This document shows, one piece after another, positions 41,641-48,633 of a stretch of 64,000 bases of DNA. The position numbers were made by a program, and so were the translations under genes. The DNA comes from Bacteroidia bacterium (GTDB lineage Bacteria > Bacteroidota > Bacteroidia > Chitinophagales > JAUHXS01): NCBI GenBank assembly GCA_030426955.1, contig JAUHXS010000009.1, positions 1 to 64,000 on the forward strand. Direction: 5' to 3'. The notes under the pieces are model-generated. The model had not been told where the DNA came from. It did not search any database and was given only the letters and a program-made list of their open reading frames with translations. Every line of letters begins with the position of its first letter. Positions within the stretch are counted from its first letter, which is position 1.

Positions 41641-43419
41641 ATGAATTTCAGGTTTACGATTGGGAAAAAAATTGGCGCTGGCTTTGGTGGTTTAATCATC
41701 TTGACTATTATCGTATTTATCTTAACAACGCTTACTTTAAACAAAAGTAAGCGAATCAATGATGAGATAAATAACATTTACACTCCTTCCGTAGAAGAAT
41801 TAAAGACTCTTAACCTAATGATCGTTAGGTCTAAGCTATTAATATATAATTGGGTTTTTATTCAAAGTGGTCCAGATAATTTTGACAAGTTAGAACTAGA
41901 CCGCCTGATTGATGTCCATTATCCTAACCAAAAAGAAAAGATTCAATCTTTAGCCCAAAACTGGGTAGAAGAAGAATCAAAATCGGTTGATACGCTGTTC
42001 TTAAAAATAGATAATATGTTTGCTTCTTACAAAGCTCATGTTATGGATCAATTAGTTAGTTTTTCTGACTATGAAGACTTTATGATCATGTCATTTGCTA
42101 GAACAGAGCTAGAAGCAGGCGGCGAAATAGATGCTCAGACAAATGAAATATTAAAAGATTTGGATGCAATCATTGCATTACAAAATGAGCATGCAGAAAG
42201 TGTTAATACTGAAATGCTTAATTCCTTTAGCCTATTACATAGAGTAGTACAAAACTCTGGCATTCTATTAATCATTGGTGGCATATTGATAGCATTTTTT
42301 ACCATTCGCACCATTGTAAGACCCATTGACAAATTAAAAAATATGCTACTGACCATGTCAACTGGAGTAGTTCCTGAGGAAAAAATGGACGAACGGTCAG
42401 ATGAAATTGGAGAAATGAGTAAAGCATTTGAAAAAATGACAGATGCATACTCACGTCAGGTAGAGTTTTCCAGACAAGTGGGTGCGGGACATTTTGAAGC
42501 TCAGTATGAGCCTTTAAGTGAGCAAGACACTTTAGGATTTGTATTGCTAAAGATGCGTGATGACATCAAGGAGGCAGAACATATCTTGGAGGAGAAAGTA
42601 AAGGAAAGAACTGCAGAGGTAGTGAGACAAAAAGGAGAGTTAGAAATCATTAATAAAAAAGTTACGGAAAGTATTAACTATGCCAAGAGAATTCAAGATG
42701 CAATACTACCGAGTGTAGACTATATTAAAGAGTTTTTACCACAATCATTTAGATTCTATAAAGCTAAGGATGTTGTAAGTGGTGACTTTCCATGGTTTCT
42801 AAAAAAGGGAGATGACTTATACATTGCAGCTGTTGATTGCACAGGACATGGTGTTCCTGGAGCCTTAATATCAATTATTGGTTATTTCTTACTAAACCAA
42901 ATTGTTAGTGTTAACAAAGATCCTAATCCAGCAGAAATATTAGATGAATTACATATGAGGGTTAGGAAAACATTGAAGCAAGACCAAGAAGGTGCCGAAA
43001 CTCGCGATGGAATGGATATTGCGCTTTGTAAAATAAATTTAAAACAGAAAACATTAGAACACTCTGGTGCACATAGACCTTTATACATGACCAGAGAAGG
43101 CCAAGAAGAACTTATAGAACTAAAAGCGGACAAAGCAGCCATTGGTGGCAAGTACGACAACAAGTCTAGCTTTACTAATAACAAAATTGATATCAAAAAG
43201 GGAGATACTGTATACTTCTTTTCTGATGGATTAGTCGATCAATTCGGTGGCCCTACCAAAAGAAAGAAATTTAGCTCTAGGAGAGTTAGAGAATTTGCAG
43301 TTTCCAATGCTGGAAATGATATAAATGACATCAAAACTAATATTTTCAGGGCTTTCAATGACTGGATGGGAGACACTAGACAACTGGATGATGTCCTATT
43401 AATAGGTATAAAATTTTAA
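41641..43419 (+). CDS. HAMP-domain SpoIIE-type PP2C phosphatase
   Basis: 592 aa. Helix 1 (about 12-33), a periplasmic four-helix-bundle-like region (about 35-195), helix 2 (about 203-222), a HAMP domain (about 222-275; IVRPIDKLKNMLLTMSTG), a second linker, a coiled coil (KVKERTAEVVRQKGE), SINYAKRIQDAILPS, and the PP2C domain with VVSGDFPWF, VDCTGHGVPGALISIIG, DGMDIALCKIN and SDGLVDQFGG. The layout is like SiaA of Pseudomonas. It is the fourth-from-last gene before the M16 region, closely following the YfiR and TPR genes, with a small orphan gene 47 nt downstream. It is proposed as the output of this cluster. Confidence 0.92.
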   Translation: MNFRFTIGKKIGAGFGGLIILTIIVFILTTLTLNKSKRINDEINNIYTPSVEELKTLNLMIVRSKLLIYNWVFIQSGPDNFDKLELDRLIDVHYPNQKEKIQSLAQNWVEEESKSVDTLFLKIDNMFASYKAHVMDQLVSFSDYEDFMIMSFARTELEAGGEIDAQTNEILKDLDAIIALQNEHAESVNTEMLNSFSLLHRVVQNSGILLIIGGILIAFFTIRTIVRPIDKLKNMLLTMSTGVVPEEKMDERSDEIGEMSKAFEKMTDAYSRQVEFSRQVGAGHFEAQYEPLSEQDTLGFVLLKMRDDIKEAEHILEEKVKERTAEVVRQKGELEIINKKVTESINYAKRIQDAILPSVDYIKEFLPQSFRFYKAKDVVSGDFPWFLKKGDDLYIAAVDCTGHGVPGALISIIGYFLLNQIVSVNKDPNPAEILDELHMRVRKTLKQDQEGAETRDGMDIALCKINLKQKTLEHSGAHRPLYMTREGQEELIELKADKAAIGGKYDNKSSFTNNKIDIKKGDTVYFFSDGLVDQFGGPTKRKKFSSRRVREFAVSNAGNDINDIKTNIFRAFNDWMGDTRQLDDVLLIGIKF

Positions 43420-43466
43420 GGTTTATATAAAATATTCTTTATATATTTACGATAAGAGAAGTGTCA

Positions 43467-43859
43467 ATGGGGCAGTTTAAGGACATACATTTAGTTAAGG
43501 GGGAAAATTACCTTGACCTTACTGATGCAATATGTTCAGAGATGGACAATAAAATTTCTATGCTATTTGTGGGGAACCTGAACAAAAGAATTGACGAAGA
43601 AGTTGAGCATCCATGGGTTTCTATTTTAAAAGAGTCTAGCCCAAAAGCAATCAAAGATGCAGACAATGCTTTTCTCAACTGTATTAAGAAAACAAGAGAA
43701 ACAGAGGAGGATATTAAGTCTGCTTTATTAACAGTTGACAAAAACAACGAACCACCAAAACTTAGTATTTCTTCACTATCCAGCAATACTGATCAGTCTG
43801 ACTCGATTAGTGTCCAAAACATTTCTGCTGACAAGAACTTGGTTATTTGGGAAAACTAA
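43467..43859 (+). CDS. Small orphan protein downstream of the HAMP/SpoIIE gene
   Basis: 130 aa from the ATG at 43467 (a GTG lies 6 nt upstream). Not recognised. It is soluble, with an alpha/beta N-terminal half (MGQFKDIHLVKGENYLDL, then ISMLFVGNLNKRI) and a Ser-rich, probably disordered tail (LSISSLSSNTDQSDSISV). It may be co-transcribed with the phosphatase gene. Its last codons (VIWEN and the stop) lie inside the 115-bp direct repeat whose other copy is at 47200-47314, so its 3' end is shared with the far side of the M16 segment. I tested for a SiaB- or SiaC-like match and saw none. Confidence 0.65.
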   Translation: MGQFKDIHLVKGENYLDLTDAICSEMDNKISMLFVGNLNKRIDEEVEHPWVSILKESSPKAIKDADNAFLNCIKKTRETEEDIKSALLTVDKNNEPPKLSISSLSSNTDQSDSISVQNISADKNLVIWEN

Positions 43860-43954
43860 GTTTATACCAAATAAAATCCCACACATAGTATTATACCCCT
43901 ATTGGACTTTCTTGTGGAATATTAGTTTCTCTTATTGCATTAAATCCTCCTAAA
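43840..43954. repeat. 115-bp direct repeat, left copy
   Basis: 113 of 115 positions are identical to 47200-47314 (differences at 43922 and 43930), and the copies are exactly 3360 bp apart. It contains the last codons of the small orphan gene, a 31-bp gap and, on the minus strand, an orphaned piece of the 3' end of the metallo-beta-lactamase/rhodanese gene (last about 21 codons, ending SPIGV). In that coding part the two copies differ by one silent and one Ser/Asn change. Confidence 0.95.
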
Positions 43955-44329
43955 TATCTGATTTGTCATAGAAGTCTGAGGGATTTAAGCTTGTAAGGGA
44001 CAAAAGAAGATATTCTTTTTTAATTCAATAGATATAATGGCATACATTTTAAATCCTAAAATACTTATAGTCAATCACTTGGAATTATTGTTACTACCTA
44101 TTAACATTAACAAATCACACATTTTCTTTTTTGGTAAAAAATGTGTTTTTAATTTCTTGTGTAGAAATATTAAACAAGTTTACTTGTAATAATACTGAAT
44201 TTGATAGTTAAACCCTTACATTTAGTATCACTGAATATGCCCATCAAAATATCAAACTCAAGACTATCAGGCATTAACATTTTGATGTCAAAACTTATAT
44301 TTTTAAAACAACCTATTAACTAAAATATT
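43955..44329. other. Upstream region of the M16 gene, no gene
   Basis: About 375 bp with no plausible gene. It holds one terminator-like hairpin (44117-44146) and AT-rich sequence. No good TAnnTTTG promoter was found near the M16 start. Confidence 0.6.
44117..44150 (+). terminator. Terminator-like hairpin upstream of the M16 gene
   Basis: Arms ACACATTTT (44117-44125) and AAAATGTGT (44138-44146) form a 9-bp stem with a 12-nt loop, followed by TTTT and an AT-rich tail. Its position before the M16 gene suggests it ends transcription from the phosphatase cluster. Confidence 0.6.
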
Positions 44330-47146
44330 ATGCAAAAGCGAGTAGTTTCCTATTTATTTATTATTCTATTTTCATTACTTATAACAAGTTGTCAACAGGA
44401 TAAACCAGTACAAAATACTGTTGACATTCCATTAGACCCTACGGTCCGGACTGGAAAACTAGAAAACGGATTGACTTATTATATAAAGTATAACCCTAAA
44501 CCTTTGAACAGAGCTGAATTCAGATTGGCTGTAAATGCGGGTTCCAACCAAGAAGATGAGGATCAACAAGGTCTAGCACATTTTACAGAGCACATGGCTT
44601 TTAATGGCTCCGAACACTTTAGCAAGAATGAATTGATAGACTACTTAGAATCAATAGGTACTAAGTTTGGTGCGCACCTCAATGCATATACGAGCTTTGA
44701 TGAAACTGTGTATATGTTTAAAATACCAACAGATTCACCTGATATCGTAAACAAAGGCTACCAAATACTAAGTGATTGGGCTGGTGGCTTGAGTTTCGAC
44801 CATGAAGAGATCGACAAGGAAAGAGGTGTTGTAGGCGAAGAGTGGCGACTAAGACTAGGTGCAAATGAAAGAATGCGCAGAAAATACTGGCCAGTACTAT
44901 TTCACAACTCTAGGTATGCAGAGAGAATGCCTATAGGTAAGAAAGAAGTTATAGACACCGCTAACTATGAGGCATTTAAACGCTATTACAGGGATTGGTA
45001 TAGACCTGACTTAATGGCTGTTTTGGTGGTGGGTGATATTAACATAGATAGTACAGAGAAAAAAATTATTCAACATTTCTCTCATTTAAAGAGTCTAGAA
45101 AATAAAAGAGAAAAAGAACTATACAACATACCTGATCACAAAGATGCCAAGGCTGTGGTAGCCACAGACAAGGAGGCCTCTTATACCTTAGTTAAAATCA
45201 TGTACAAACAAGACAAAAAGAAAATCAAAACAGAAGAAGATTACAGAAGCTCCCTGATAAGGAAATTGTATACTAATATGATTTCGAGTAGACTTAAGGA
45301 ATTAAAGCTTCAAGAGGACCCTCCTTTTTCTTTCGCTTACGCTTATTATGGAGGATTTGCTAGAACAAAAGATAATTATGTTTCAGTTGCTTTTATCGAA
45401 GAAGATGAGGTAGCAAGAAGCATAAATACATTATTAACTGAAAATGAACGAGTACGACAGCATGGTTATACACAAACAGAGTTGGAACGAGAAAAGAAAT
45501 CTATGCTTAGAAAAATGGAAAAACGTTTCAAAGAAACAGGAAAAACGGACTCTAGGGATATTATTGGCAGCTACGTATATCATTTCTTAAATGGCAATGC
45601 CGTTGCTGGAGTAGAGCAAGATTTAGCATTGCACGAAAAATACTTACCAGGTATTACCTTGAATGAAATCAATCAATTAGCTACGGAATGGATTACAGAT
45701 GGCAACTATGTCATCGTAGTTACTGCTCCTGAGAAAGAAGATTTAAAATTACCAACAGAGGAGGAATTACTGACATTAGCAAATAACATAAAGACTACTA
45801 AAATAGAGCCTTATATAGACAATACAAATGATGCTGATTTACTGCCATCGGCTCCAGAAAGTGGATCGATTACTAAGGAGACTCAATTTGAAGCATTAGG
45901 TATTACAGAATGGAAATTGTCCAATGGCGTCAAGGTATTACTCAAACCTACAGACTTTAAAAACGATGAAGTGCTCATTGAAGCCTTTAGCTATGGTGGT
46001 GCATCTCTTTACCCAGCAGAAGATGACCTTTCAGCATCTTATGCCTCAGTCATAATGACCCAAAGTGGTGTTGGCACATTTAATAGAATACAATTGGATA
46101 AAAAGTTAGCTGGAAAGATCGTCAATGTATATCCTGTCAATGGGGAAACTTTTGAAGGATTTAGAGGCAATACTTCTACAGAAGATTTAAATACGGCAAT
46201 GCAGTTGATTCACTTATATTTTACTCAACCGCGAAAAGATGAAGTGGCTTTTAAGTCCTTTATAGATGAACAGAAAGGGTTTATTGAGAACAATACAGCT
46301 TGGCCAGACAAGACATTGTATGACACCATTGATCATGTGTTGTATAACAAACACCCTAGAAGGCTACCGATGTCCTTGGAAAGATTAGGTGAACTTGACC
46401 TAGATAAGACATATGGCATTTATAAGGATCGGTTTGCAGATGCCAGTGACTTCAACTTCTTCTTTGTTGGAAATTTCACTTTGGAAGCAATAAAGCCGAT
46501 GGTAGAAAAATATTTAGCAAATCTACCTAGCACAAACCGATCTGAAAGCTGGAAAGACATGAAATTAAACTATACAAAAGGTAAAATCGAAAAAACAGTT
46601 TATAAGGGTATTGAGCCTAAGAGCAGAGTAAACCTCATATTTACTGGCGACTATGAATGGAATGGCGAAAACAAGTTTAAAATTGATGCCATGGTCAAAG
46701 TATTAAGCATTAAACTAAGAGAAACACTAAGGGAAGACATGGGTGGTGTCTATGGCGTGGGTGTTTACCCTATCCTCTCACACTATCCAAAGGAAACCTA
46801 TAGGTTAACAATATCTTTTGGCTGTGATCCAGAAAATACAGAAGCGCTCATCGCTGCAGCGGAGAAAGAAATTAGGCAGTTACAAAACAATGAGCCAGAA
46901 GCTATCGACATGACTAAAGCCAAGCAGACAATGATCCGGAGCAGGGAGACCGACTTAAACGAAAATAGATTTTGGTTAAAACTGATCAAAGAAAGCTACT
47001 TCCATCAAGAGGGATTGCCAGACTTGACAAAGTTTAATGAGCAAGTTGAAGCACTGACTGGCAAAGAAATTCAAGAGACGACTCAAAAGTATTTTAATTT
47101 CGATAATTACTTCAAAGCTGTACTTTACCCAAAAAAAGAAATGTAA
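44330..47146 (+). CDS. M16-family zinc metalloprotease, lipoprotein
   Basis: 938 aa, two tandem M16 (pitrilysin/insulinase-type) units. A lipobox (ITSC, Cys21) predicts a membrane-anchored periplasmic protein. The first unit has the inverted zinc motif His84-x-x-Glu-His88 (AHFTEH) and the downstream Glu in EEIDKERGVVGEEW; the second unit (from about residue 525) lacks the zinc motif, as usual for the C-terminal half. Substrates are unknown; family members degrade peptides or process proteins in the envelope. It is flanked by the 115-bp direct repeats and a terminator-like hairpin, so the segment 43955-47199 may be a recent insertion. Confidence 0.93.
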   Translation: MQKRVVSYLFIILFSLLITSCQQDKPVQNTVDIPLDPTVRTGKLENGLTYYIKYNPKPLNRAEFRLAVNAGSNQEDEDQQGLAHFTEHMAFNGSEHFSKNELIDYLESIGTKFGAHLNAYTSFDETVYMFKIPTDSPDIVNKGYQILSDWAGGLSFDHEEIDKERGVVGEEWRLRLGANERMRRKYWPVLFHNSRYAERMPIGKKEVIDTANYEAFKRYYRDWYRPDLMAVLVVGDINIDSTEKKIIQHFSHLKSLENKREKELYNIPDHKDAKAVVATDKEASYTLVKIMYKQDKKKIKTEEDYRSSLIRKLYTNMISSRLKELKLQEDPPFSFAYAYYGGFARTKDNYVSVAFIEEDEVARSINTLLTENERVRQHGYTQTELEREKKSMLRKMEKRFKETGKTDSRDIIGSYVYHFLNGNAVAGVEQDLALHEKYLPGITLNEINQLATEWITDGNYVIVVTAPEKEDLKLPTEEELLTLANNIKTTKIEPYIDNTNDADLLPSAPESGSITKETQFEALGITEWKLSNGVKVLLKPTDFKNDEVLIEAFSYGGASLYPAEDDLSASYASVIMTQSGVGTFNRIQLDKKLAGKIVNVYPVNGETFEGFRGNTSTEDLNTAMQLIHLYFTQPRKDEVAFKSFIDEQKGFIENNTAWPDKTLYDTIDHVLYNKHPRRLPMSLERLGELDLDKTYGIYKDRFADASDFNFFFVGNFTLEAIKPMVEKYLANLPSTNRSESWKDMKLNYTKGKIEKTVYKGIEPKSRVNLIFTGDYEWNGENKFKIDAMVKVLSIKLRETLREDMGGVYGVGVYPILSHYPKETYRLTISFGCDPENTEALIAAAEKEIRQLQNNEPEAIDMTKAKQTMIRSRETDLNENRFWLKLIKESYFHQEGLPDLTKFNEQVEALTGKEIQETTQKYFNFDNYFKAVLYPKKEM

Positions 47147-47199
47147 TTTCTGAAACTAGATTATTTAATTTCAACGTAAGTTTAAGTGGCAATCAATAG

Positions 47200-47314
47200 T
47201 GGTTATTTGGGAAAACTAAGTTTATACCAAATAAAATCCCACACATAGTATTATACCCCTATTGGACTTTCTTGTGGAATACTAGTTTCCCTTATTGCAT
47301 TAAATCCTCCTAAA
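47200..47314. repeat. 115-bp direct repeat, right copy
   Basis: It pairs with 43840-43954 (113/115 identical). It contains the true 3' end of the metallo-beta-lactamase/rhodanese gene (stop at 47251) and, at 47201-47219, an orphaned VIWEN-stop tail from the small protein gene of the left side. The arrangement is reciprocal to that of the left copy. Confidence 0.95.
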
Positions 47315-48633
47315 ACGTTATTGACCTTGTCAAAACCATTTTTCTTTAAAATAGATGCTGCAACCATCGACCTATAGCCACTTCTACAGTTAATGGTATA
47401 AGTATTTGCAGTGTCAAGTTTATCTAAAGATTTTTCAAGATCACTAAGTGGAATAATCAGAGCGCCTTTAATATGCGCTTCGTCTGTTTCACTAGGCTTT
47501 CTTACATCAAGAATCACATCTTCTCTAGCTTCGTATATTGCCTTCAATTGATCCATATCTACTTGCCCTACACTTTTAATCTCTTCACCTGCCTCCATCC
47601 ATTTATTAATTCCACCTTCTAGGTATCCAACTACATTTTCAAACCCCACTCTTGCTAGCCTCATGACTGTTTCTTCTTCTTTGCCAGAATCAGTCACGAG
47701 CACTAAAGGTTGGTTAATATCGATCAAAGTGCCTACCCAAACTGCAAATGTTCCACTCAAGCCTATGTTTATAGAGTTTGGTACAAATCTCTCTGCAAAG
47801 TCGTTTGGATCACGAGTATCCAAGATCAGTGCATCTTTAGTAGCTTGCTTAAACTCATCTATACTCAACGGTTTAGAATTTTGATTGATAACATTGTCAA
47901 TATTATCATAACCCTCTTTATTAATTCTAGCATCTTGAAAGAAGTAAGCAGGTGGTGGTGGCATATCATCTGTTAAGACTTTAATAAACTCTTCTTTTGT
48001 CATCTCTTGTAATGCATAATTACTTTTCTTCTGCTCCCCAAGTGAAGACGATGTCTCACTACTCAAGCCTTTTCCGCATTGCGAACCTGCACCGTGAGCT
48101 GGATATACAATAACGTCATCAGGCAAAGGCATGATTTTATTGCGAAGCGAGTCGTACATCATACCAGCCAACTCCTCTTTACTCATTTTACCATCTAATA
48201 AGTCTGGTCTTCCAACAGCACCGATAAATAAGGTATCACCACTGAAAAGAGCATACTCCTTTCCACTTTCATCGTATAGTAAATAACATGTCGACTCTGG
48301 TGTATGTCCTGGCGTGTGAAGCGCCTTAATGGTTATACTTCCTAATTTAAACTCTTCACCGTCTGCTGCGTTGTAGACTTCATAACTTGCATCAGCACCT
48401 GGACCATAAACGATTTGTGCACCTGTGGCATTAGCTAAGTCAATATGACCTGAAACAAAGTCTGCATGAAAGTGTGTTTCAAAGACATATTTAATCTTCC
48501 CATTGTTATTATTTGCCTTTTCTATATAAGGTTTTACTTCTCTCAAAGGGTCTATTATAGCAATTTCACCATTTGATTCAATATAATACGCTGCTTCAGC
48601 TAAACAGTTTGTATAAAGTTGCTCTATAACCAT
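47251..48633 (-). CDS. Metallo-beta-lactamase-fold hydrolase fused to two rhodanese domains
   Basis: 460 aa. N-terminal MBL domain (1-about 210) with metal ligands ETHFHADFVSGH, LHTPGHTPES and FSGDTLF, resembling persulfide dioxygenases (ETHE1/Blh type). First rhodanese-like domain (about 255-345; LILDTRDPNDFAE) has VTDSGKE where the catalytic Cys loop would be, so it is probably inactive. The second (about 365-455; VILDVRKPSETDEAHIKG) has an intact catalytic loop NCRSGYRSM. Likely role: oxidation or transfer of persulfide sulfur in the cytoplasm. It is 6 nt downstream of a TSUP transporter gene. Its 3' end lies inside the right direct-repeat copy. Confidence 0.93.
   Translation of the reverse strand: MVIEQLYTNCLAEAAYYIESNGEIAIIDPLREVKPYIEKANNNNGKIKYVFETHFHADFVSGHIDLANATGAQIVYGPGADASYEVYNAADGEEFKLGSITIKALHTPGHTPESTCYLLYDESGKEYALFSGDTLFIGAVGRPDLLDGKMSKEELAGMMYDSLRNKIMPLPDDVIVYPAHGAGSQCGKGLSSETSSSLGEQKKSNYALQEMTKEEFIKVLTDDMPPPPAYFFQDARINKEGYDNIDNVINQNSKPLSIDEFKQATKDALILDTRDPNDFAERFVPNSINIGLSGTFAVWVGTLIDINQPLVLVTDSGKEEETVMRLARVGFENVVGYLEGGINKWMEAGEEIKSVGQVDMDQLKAIYEAREDVILDVRKPSETDEAHIKGALIIPLSDLEKSLDKLDTANTYTINCRSGYRSMVAASILKKNGFDKVNNVLGGFNAIRETSIPQESPIGV

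Follow-up and report, generated by a model that had tools for sequence, protein, structure and literature searches.

The locus described here raises the question of how a complete peptidase gene came to lie between two nearly identical copies of a sequence that, in each copy, holds the 3' ends of two other genes. It is found within the window, which is the whole 64,000-nucleotide stretch of DNA that was analysed and whose positions are used throughout. A first description, made from the letters alone (the sequence-only reading), had proposed that the two genes were formerly convergent neighbours which were separated by the insertion of the peptidase gene.

The repeat pair

The two copies form a direct repeat of 115 bp, of which the left copy (R1) occupies positions 43840..43954 and the right copy (R2) positions 47200..47314, neither being assigned to a strand. 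They are identical at 113/115 positions and lie 3360 bp apart, exactly the edges, length, spacing and identity given in the sequence-only reading. The longest exact run shared by R1 and R2 is 82 bp, for which the chance expectation is ~6e-38 such runs in 64 kb, and no similarity was found beyond either edge of the repeat, gapped alignments included (p ~0.5 on both sides). R1 and R2 are the only such pair in the genome, a search of the whole genome of origin having returned no third copy. A role for the repeat as a structured or terminator element was rejected, as its folding energies were no better than those of shuffled sequences and zero terminators were called.

Each copy is made up of the last 20 bp of a small gene (VIWEN-stop), a 31-bp gap and the 3' end of a rhodanese gene; these contents had been recognized correctly from the outset, and the rhodanese part measures 64 bp. 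The rhodanese gene (47251..48633, minus strand) encodes an MBL-fold/double-rhodanese protein of 460 aa, the last 64 bp of it lying in R2. When its C-terminus was aligned with 29 homologues it was found to end at about the usual place, and this alignment shows that the rhodanese tail in R2 is native and that R1 holds a displaced copy of it. Both neighbouring reading frames are intact with either repeat copy. Indeed, were one repeat deleted together with the intervening segment, neither frame would be broken, and the rhodanese tail would differ by no more than one residue (N/S).

The two mismatches between the copies are 43922 T / 47282 C and 43930 T / 47290 C. Read in the rhodanese frame, one is silent (AGA/AGG, Arg) and one is an amino-acid change (AAT/AGT, N/S), and both are located in or beside a small near-palindrome within the repeat (GGAATACTAGTTTCC). 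A divergence of 2/115 (95% range 0.2-6.3%) suggests that the event was fairly recent, in line with the moderately recent one proposed at first sight. The mismatches also bear on whether the repeat could be an artefact of assembly or strain mixture, with one copy derived from another strain. The genome is a draft in 23 contigs, which speaks for such an artefact, but a simple duplicated join is unlikely because the copies differ at two positions and both have unique flanks that complete intact genes; we regard this explanation as highly improbable.

The bracketed segment

The segment between the copies consists of an AT-rich leader of 375 bp and 25% GC (43955..44329, plus strand), the gene of an M16 (insulinase/pitrilysin family) metallopeptidase of 938 aa (44330..47146, plus strand) and a tail of 53 bp of unique sequence, given no strand, from the M16 stop to R2 (47147..47199). 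The protein has Peptidase_M16 and M16_C domains (PF00675, 5.9e-26; PF05193, 2.6e-36) alongside the HxxEH zinc motif, read from the sequence as HFTEH, and a lipoprotein-type signal (LITSC). The repeat pair brackets a complete M16 lipoprotein-peptidase gene. Within the leader, at ~44117-44152, a weak hairpin on the plus strand, with a T run behind it, is found 3' of R1 and outside the repeat. No consensus terminator was called in the leader.

No transposase or integrase could be recognized between the repeat copies, where the M16 ORF is accompanied only by ORFs of 50 aa or less (as are all those of the leader), and the sequence-only reading was correct on this point. A transposon is unlikely, both because no transposase was found and because the duplication is so long. 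The lack of an integrase bears in turn on a decayed site-specific island of the CIME type, for which the 115 bp would represent attL and attR at the rhodanese 3' end, with later loss of the integrase. Such elements often attach at gene 3' ends, and their att repeats may be around 100 bp long; moreover, the genome has four tyrosine-recombinase genes, one with a frame of 398 aa and the others with frames of 284-304 aa. However, the segment carries a single gene and no recognizable integrase, excisionase or remnant, no third att-like copy is present in the genome, and both mismatches fall in or beside the near-palindrome, where the core of a crossover would need to match. A site-specific element is unlikely given the missing integrase or remnant and the missing further att-like copy, and a CIME-like island is in our view quite improbable.

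Elsewhere in the genome, neither a second M16 segment nor a donor copy or remnant was found. The codon usage and nearest relatives of the M16 gene, to which the sequence-only reading had pointed as a check, did not set it apart: its codon usage is ordinary for the window, so that foreign codon usage was rejected, and in a tree it groups weakly with sequences of the same order. Nothing therefore marks the M16 gene as foreign. The segment gave no match to a defence system, its cargo being the M16 peptidase. A plasmid origin was considered and set aside, the only match being a weak one to M16 on a Flammeovirga plasmid, and so was a phage origin, viral contigs having no match to the small gene or to the 21-bp start of the repeat.

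These searches are relevant to a route that had been offered earlier by way of example, in which a circular DNA carrying the M16 gene and the 115-bp sequence would integrate by a single crossover. The geometry fits, and a circle has been put forward to explain transposed Arabidopsis genes with flanking direct repeats (PMC2869330), but such a molecule only shifts the problem, as it would have to carry beforehand a 115-bp fragment cut off within the ends of both genes and would amount to the excision product of the present locus. Also against it are the single weak plasmid match of the segment, the viral contigs that do not match the start of the repeat and the lack of any other repeat copy in the genome; the circular route was not supported, and its probability is low. 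Capture of the segment by non-homologous end joining at a staggered break is likewise unlikely, as no Ku match was found in the genome (97% complete) in a search whose control was positive in B. subtilis.

Distribution among relatives and other repeats in the genome

An M16 gene of this type is present in 87/299 genomes of the order (E<=1e-150) and the rhodanese gene in 187/199 (E<=1e-60); in this order M16 is an accessory, patchy gene, and the rhodanese gene is nearly universal. The relatives compared are all outside the genus and family of this genome, and the best M16 identity among them is ~50%. No conserved synteny of M16 with either neighbour was found in 15 regions of relatives around the M16 or the rhodanese gene. 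One candidate, an MBL gene beside M16 at locus L043, was rejected since it encodes a short MBL-fold (glyoxalase-II-like) protein of ~30% identity. A comparable flanking repeat was found at 0/76 testable M16 homologue loci (78 were examined, two of which matched only by runs of N), and the idea that M16 is a recurrently repeat-flanked mobile gene was rejected on this count. The repeat pair has the look of one local scar and not that of a mobile system.

Within an 864-kb sample of the same genome (about a quarter of it), no other direct repeat joining two gene ends around a gene was seen; two of the repeats in this sample, an Rhs-like array and a toxin-antitoxin repeat, were inspected gene by gene, and for the others, short-period arrays in the main, spacing was the sole criterion. 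The toxin-antitoxin repeat is a 226-bp direct repeat, 97% identical, at 264080-264305 and 264966-265189 of contig C11 (4080-4305 and 4966-5189 of L172). Downstream of it are two different toxin-antitoxin pairs, called RelE-like by their look, and within it begins a tyrosine-integrase arm-binding domain (PF17293, E 1.2e-10) that is frameshifted in the second copy. On contig C5, several repeats of 56-225 bp, 1.4-14 kb apart, form an apparent Rhs-like cassette array at 207500-223000 (L189-L190), and an array of 110-620 bp direct repeats, up to ~96% identical, is found at 330455-332141.

The small gene and the former junction

The small gene (43461..43859, plus strand) encodes a protein of 132 aa and lies downstream of a HAMP and SpoIIE phosphatase gene (41641..43419, plus strand). 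It has the most deviant codon usage in the window. No Pfam or NCBIfam family was found for it above cut-off, and no homologue at E<=0.001 in the 299 genomes of the order (298 besides its own). In a 395-genome sample of the phylum it gave only a few weak matches that look like chance, the best of which sits inside a DNA polymerase I; relationship to PIN proteins, epimerases or polymerases was rejected, as these matches too were weak and chance-like.

The repeat is tied to this gene by 20 bp only, namely the VIWEN-stop end. When other DNA of the window was placed at the same position and frame, 31% of the placements (36% of those using intergenic DNA) ran into a stop within six codons, and joining 43839 directly to 43955 would also yield a short end to the small gene (...ADKNLSDLS-stop). 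Given so short a tie and so common an early chance stop, the proposal that the small and rhodanese genes were once convergent neighbours is weaker than first stated; it nevertheless stays plausible. The repeat can be read in two ways: M16 may have been inserted into a junction where the two genes formerly converged, or a 115-bp copy of the M16/rhodanese junction may have been placed in the end of the small gene.

Origin of the arrangement

Of these two readings we favour the first, in which the M16 segment was gained by an insertion that duplicated ~115 bp of target at the convergent small/rhodanese junction, and we give it a probability of roughly 0.5 (this figure and the grades of confidence expressed elsewhere are our own weighing and were not computed). 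The small gene and the MBL/rhodanese gene would at the start have been convergent and 31 bp apart. A segment of roughly 3.2 kb, comprising the M16 peptidase gene and its leader, would then have been gained between them with duplication of about 115 bp of the target, such that each neighbour kept its own 3' end undamaged. The mode would be that termed 'insertion with long target duplication', with no recombinase of its own, and the long direct duplication could later be used by RecA to delete or amplify the segment. What we infer is which way the change ran (gain of M16, as opposed to 115 bp copied locally), where the segment came from and how it recombined. Insertion is favoured by the accessory status of M16 in the order, set against a nearly universal rhodanese gene, and a clean insertion sparing both neighbours would account for a repeat that covers both gene ends. 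We also count in its favour the abrupt repeat, far beyond chance, the native rhodanese tail in R2, the low divergence of the copies, the intact frames, the lack of conserved synteny and the precedent in the literature. Counted against it are that no empty site was seen among relatives from outside the genus and family, the ordinary codon usage of M16 and its weak grouping with sequences of the order, the lack of a donor copy in the genome, the 20-bp tie to the small gene with its common chance stop, and the hairpin and T run after R1, which are placed as if they had once ended the transcript of the small gene. Insertion with a 115-bp duplication, as first proposed, remains the leading reading, but a local 115-bp duplication fits the geometry equally.

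According to this competing account, M16 would be native, and a copy of the 115-bp M16/rhodanese junction would have entered the end of the small gene, 3.36 kb upstream. Template switching could have produced it, or a 3360-bp unit (43955-47314) could have been duplicated in tandem and its first copy then partly deleted. The VIWEN-stop end would then be an accidental read-in, and the small and rhodanese genes would never have been neighbours. Several observations agree with this: the displaced material in R1 is rhodanese-side DNA, an early in-frame stop is expected in about a third of pasted sequences at the frequencies given above, the LSDLS-stop join offers the small gene a short end of its own, the codon usage of M16 is ordinary, the weak terminator-like hairpin lies just downstream of R1, and other local repeats of similar length are present in the genome. 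Against it, local copying requires the chance stop and, besides, a template switch where no microhomology is visible, or else two events, and it is M16 that is the accessory gene of the neighbourhood. No second-copy remnant, as tandem duplication and partial deletion might leave, was seen; since full deletion would leave none, this only lowers the standing of that route. Overall we consider local duplication rather unlikely, though the strongest rival of insertion.

If insertion is the true reading, insertion with long target duplication would extend to an ordinary peptidase gene and, to our knowledge, this mode has not been pointed out before in Bacteroidota. Recombination between the copies would remove M16, and it is a fair prediction, under insertion, that strains with lost or amplified M16 exist. 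The wider proposition, that genes are gained in Bacteroidota by a recombinase-free route with ~100-bp target duplications and no tie to restriction-modification genes, is one that we hold to be improbable; were it true, ordinary genes could be set harmlessly between convergent neighbours and be deleted again by RecA. If local duplication is true instead, the locus is a useful caution that two genes whose ends seem fused in a repeat were not necessarily once neighbours.

Comparison with known systems

In bacteria, tandem duplication followed by partial deletion leaves close direct repeats, and the present locus resembles this in having two nearly identical direct copies a few kilobases apart; it differs in that the unit between the copies is present once, with no second M16 remnant. 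CIMEs and decayed integrative islands are segments without a recombinase that lie between direct repeats into which a gene 3' end extends. Both features are found here, but the segment has a single peptidase gene and no remnant of mobility genes, and the opposite gene too has its end within the repeat. Transposed genes in Arabidopsis are flanked by direct repeats made of genic sequence from the target site, as is the M16 gene by repeats of genic sequence; unlike the M16 gene, they are eukaryotic, and several of them could be traced to a donor site and an orthologous target site (PMC2869330).

The closest precedent is the insertion with long target duplication described from the comparison of two H. 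pylori strains (Nobusato et al. 2000, Gene 259:99-108, as recounted in passages of PMC1643837 and PMC3031569), which means that the mechanism is less unusual than the sequence-only reading had held. In those passages it is presented as a mode of gene mobility in which the target duplications are long and variable, and in which restriction-modification genes are frequently associated though not strictly required (PMC1643837, PMC3031569). As in H. pylori, the segment described here lies between long direct repeats of host sequence (115 bp, 113/115 identical) and has no transposase or integrase. Unlike the H. pylori case, which came from a comparison of strains, the locus belongs to Bacteroidota and has so far shown no empty site, and its cargo is an M16 peptidase instead of a restriction-modification gene.
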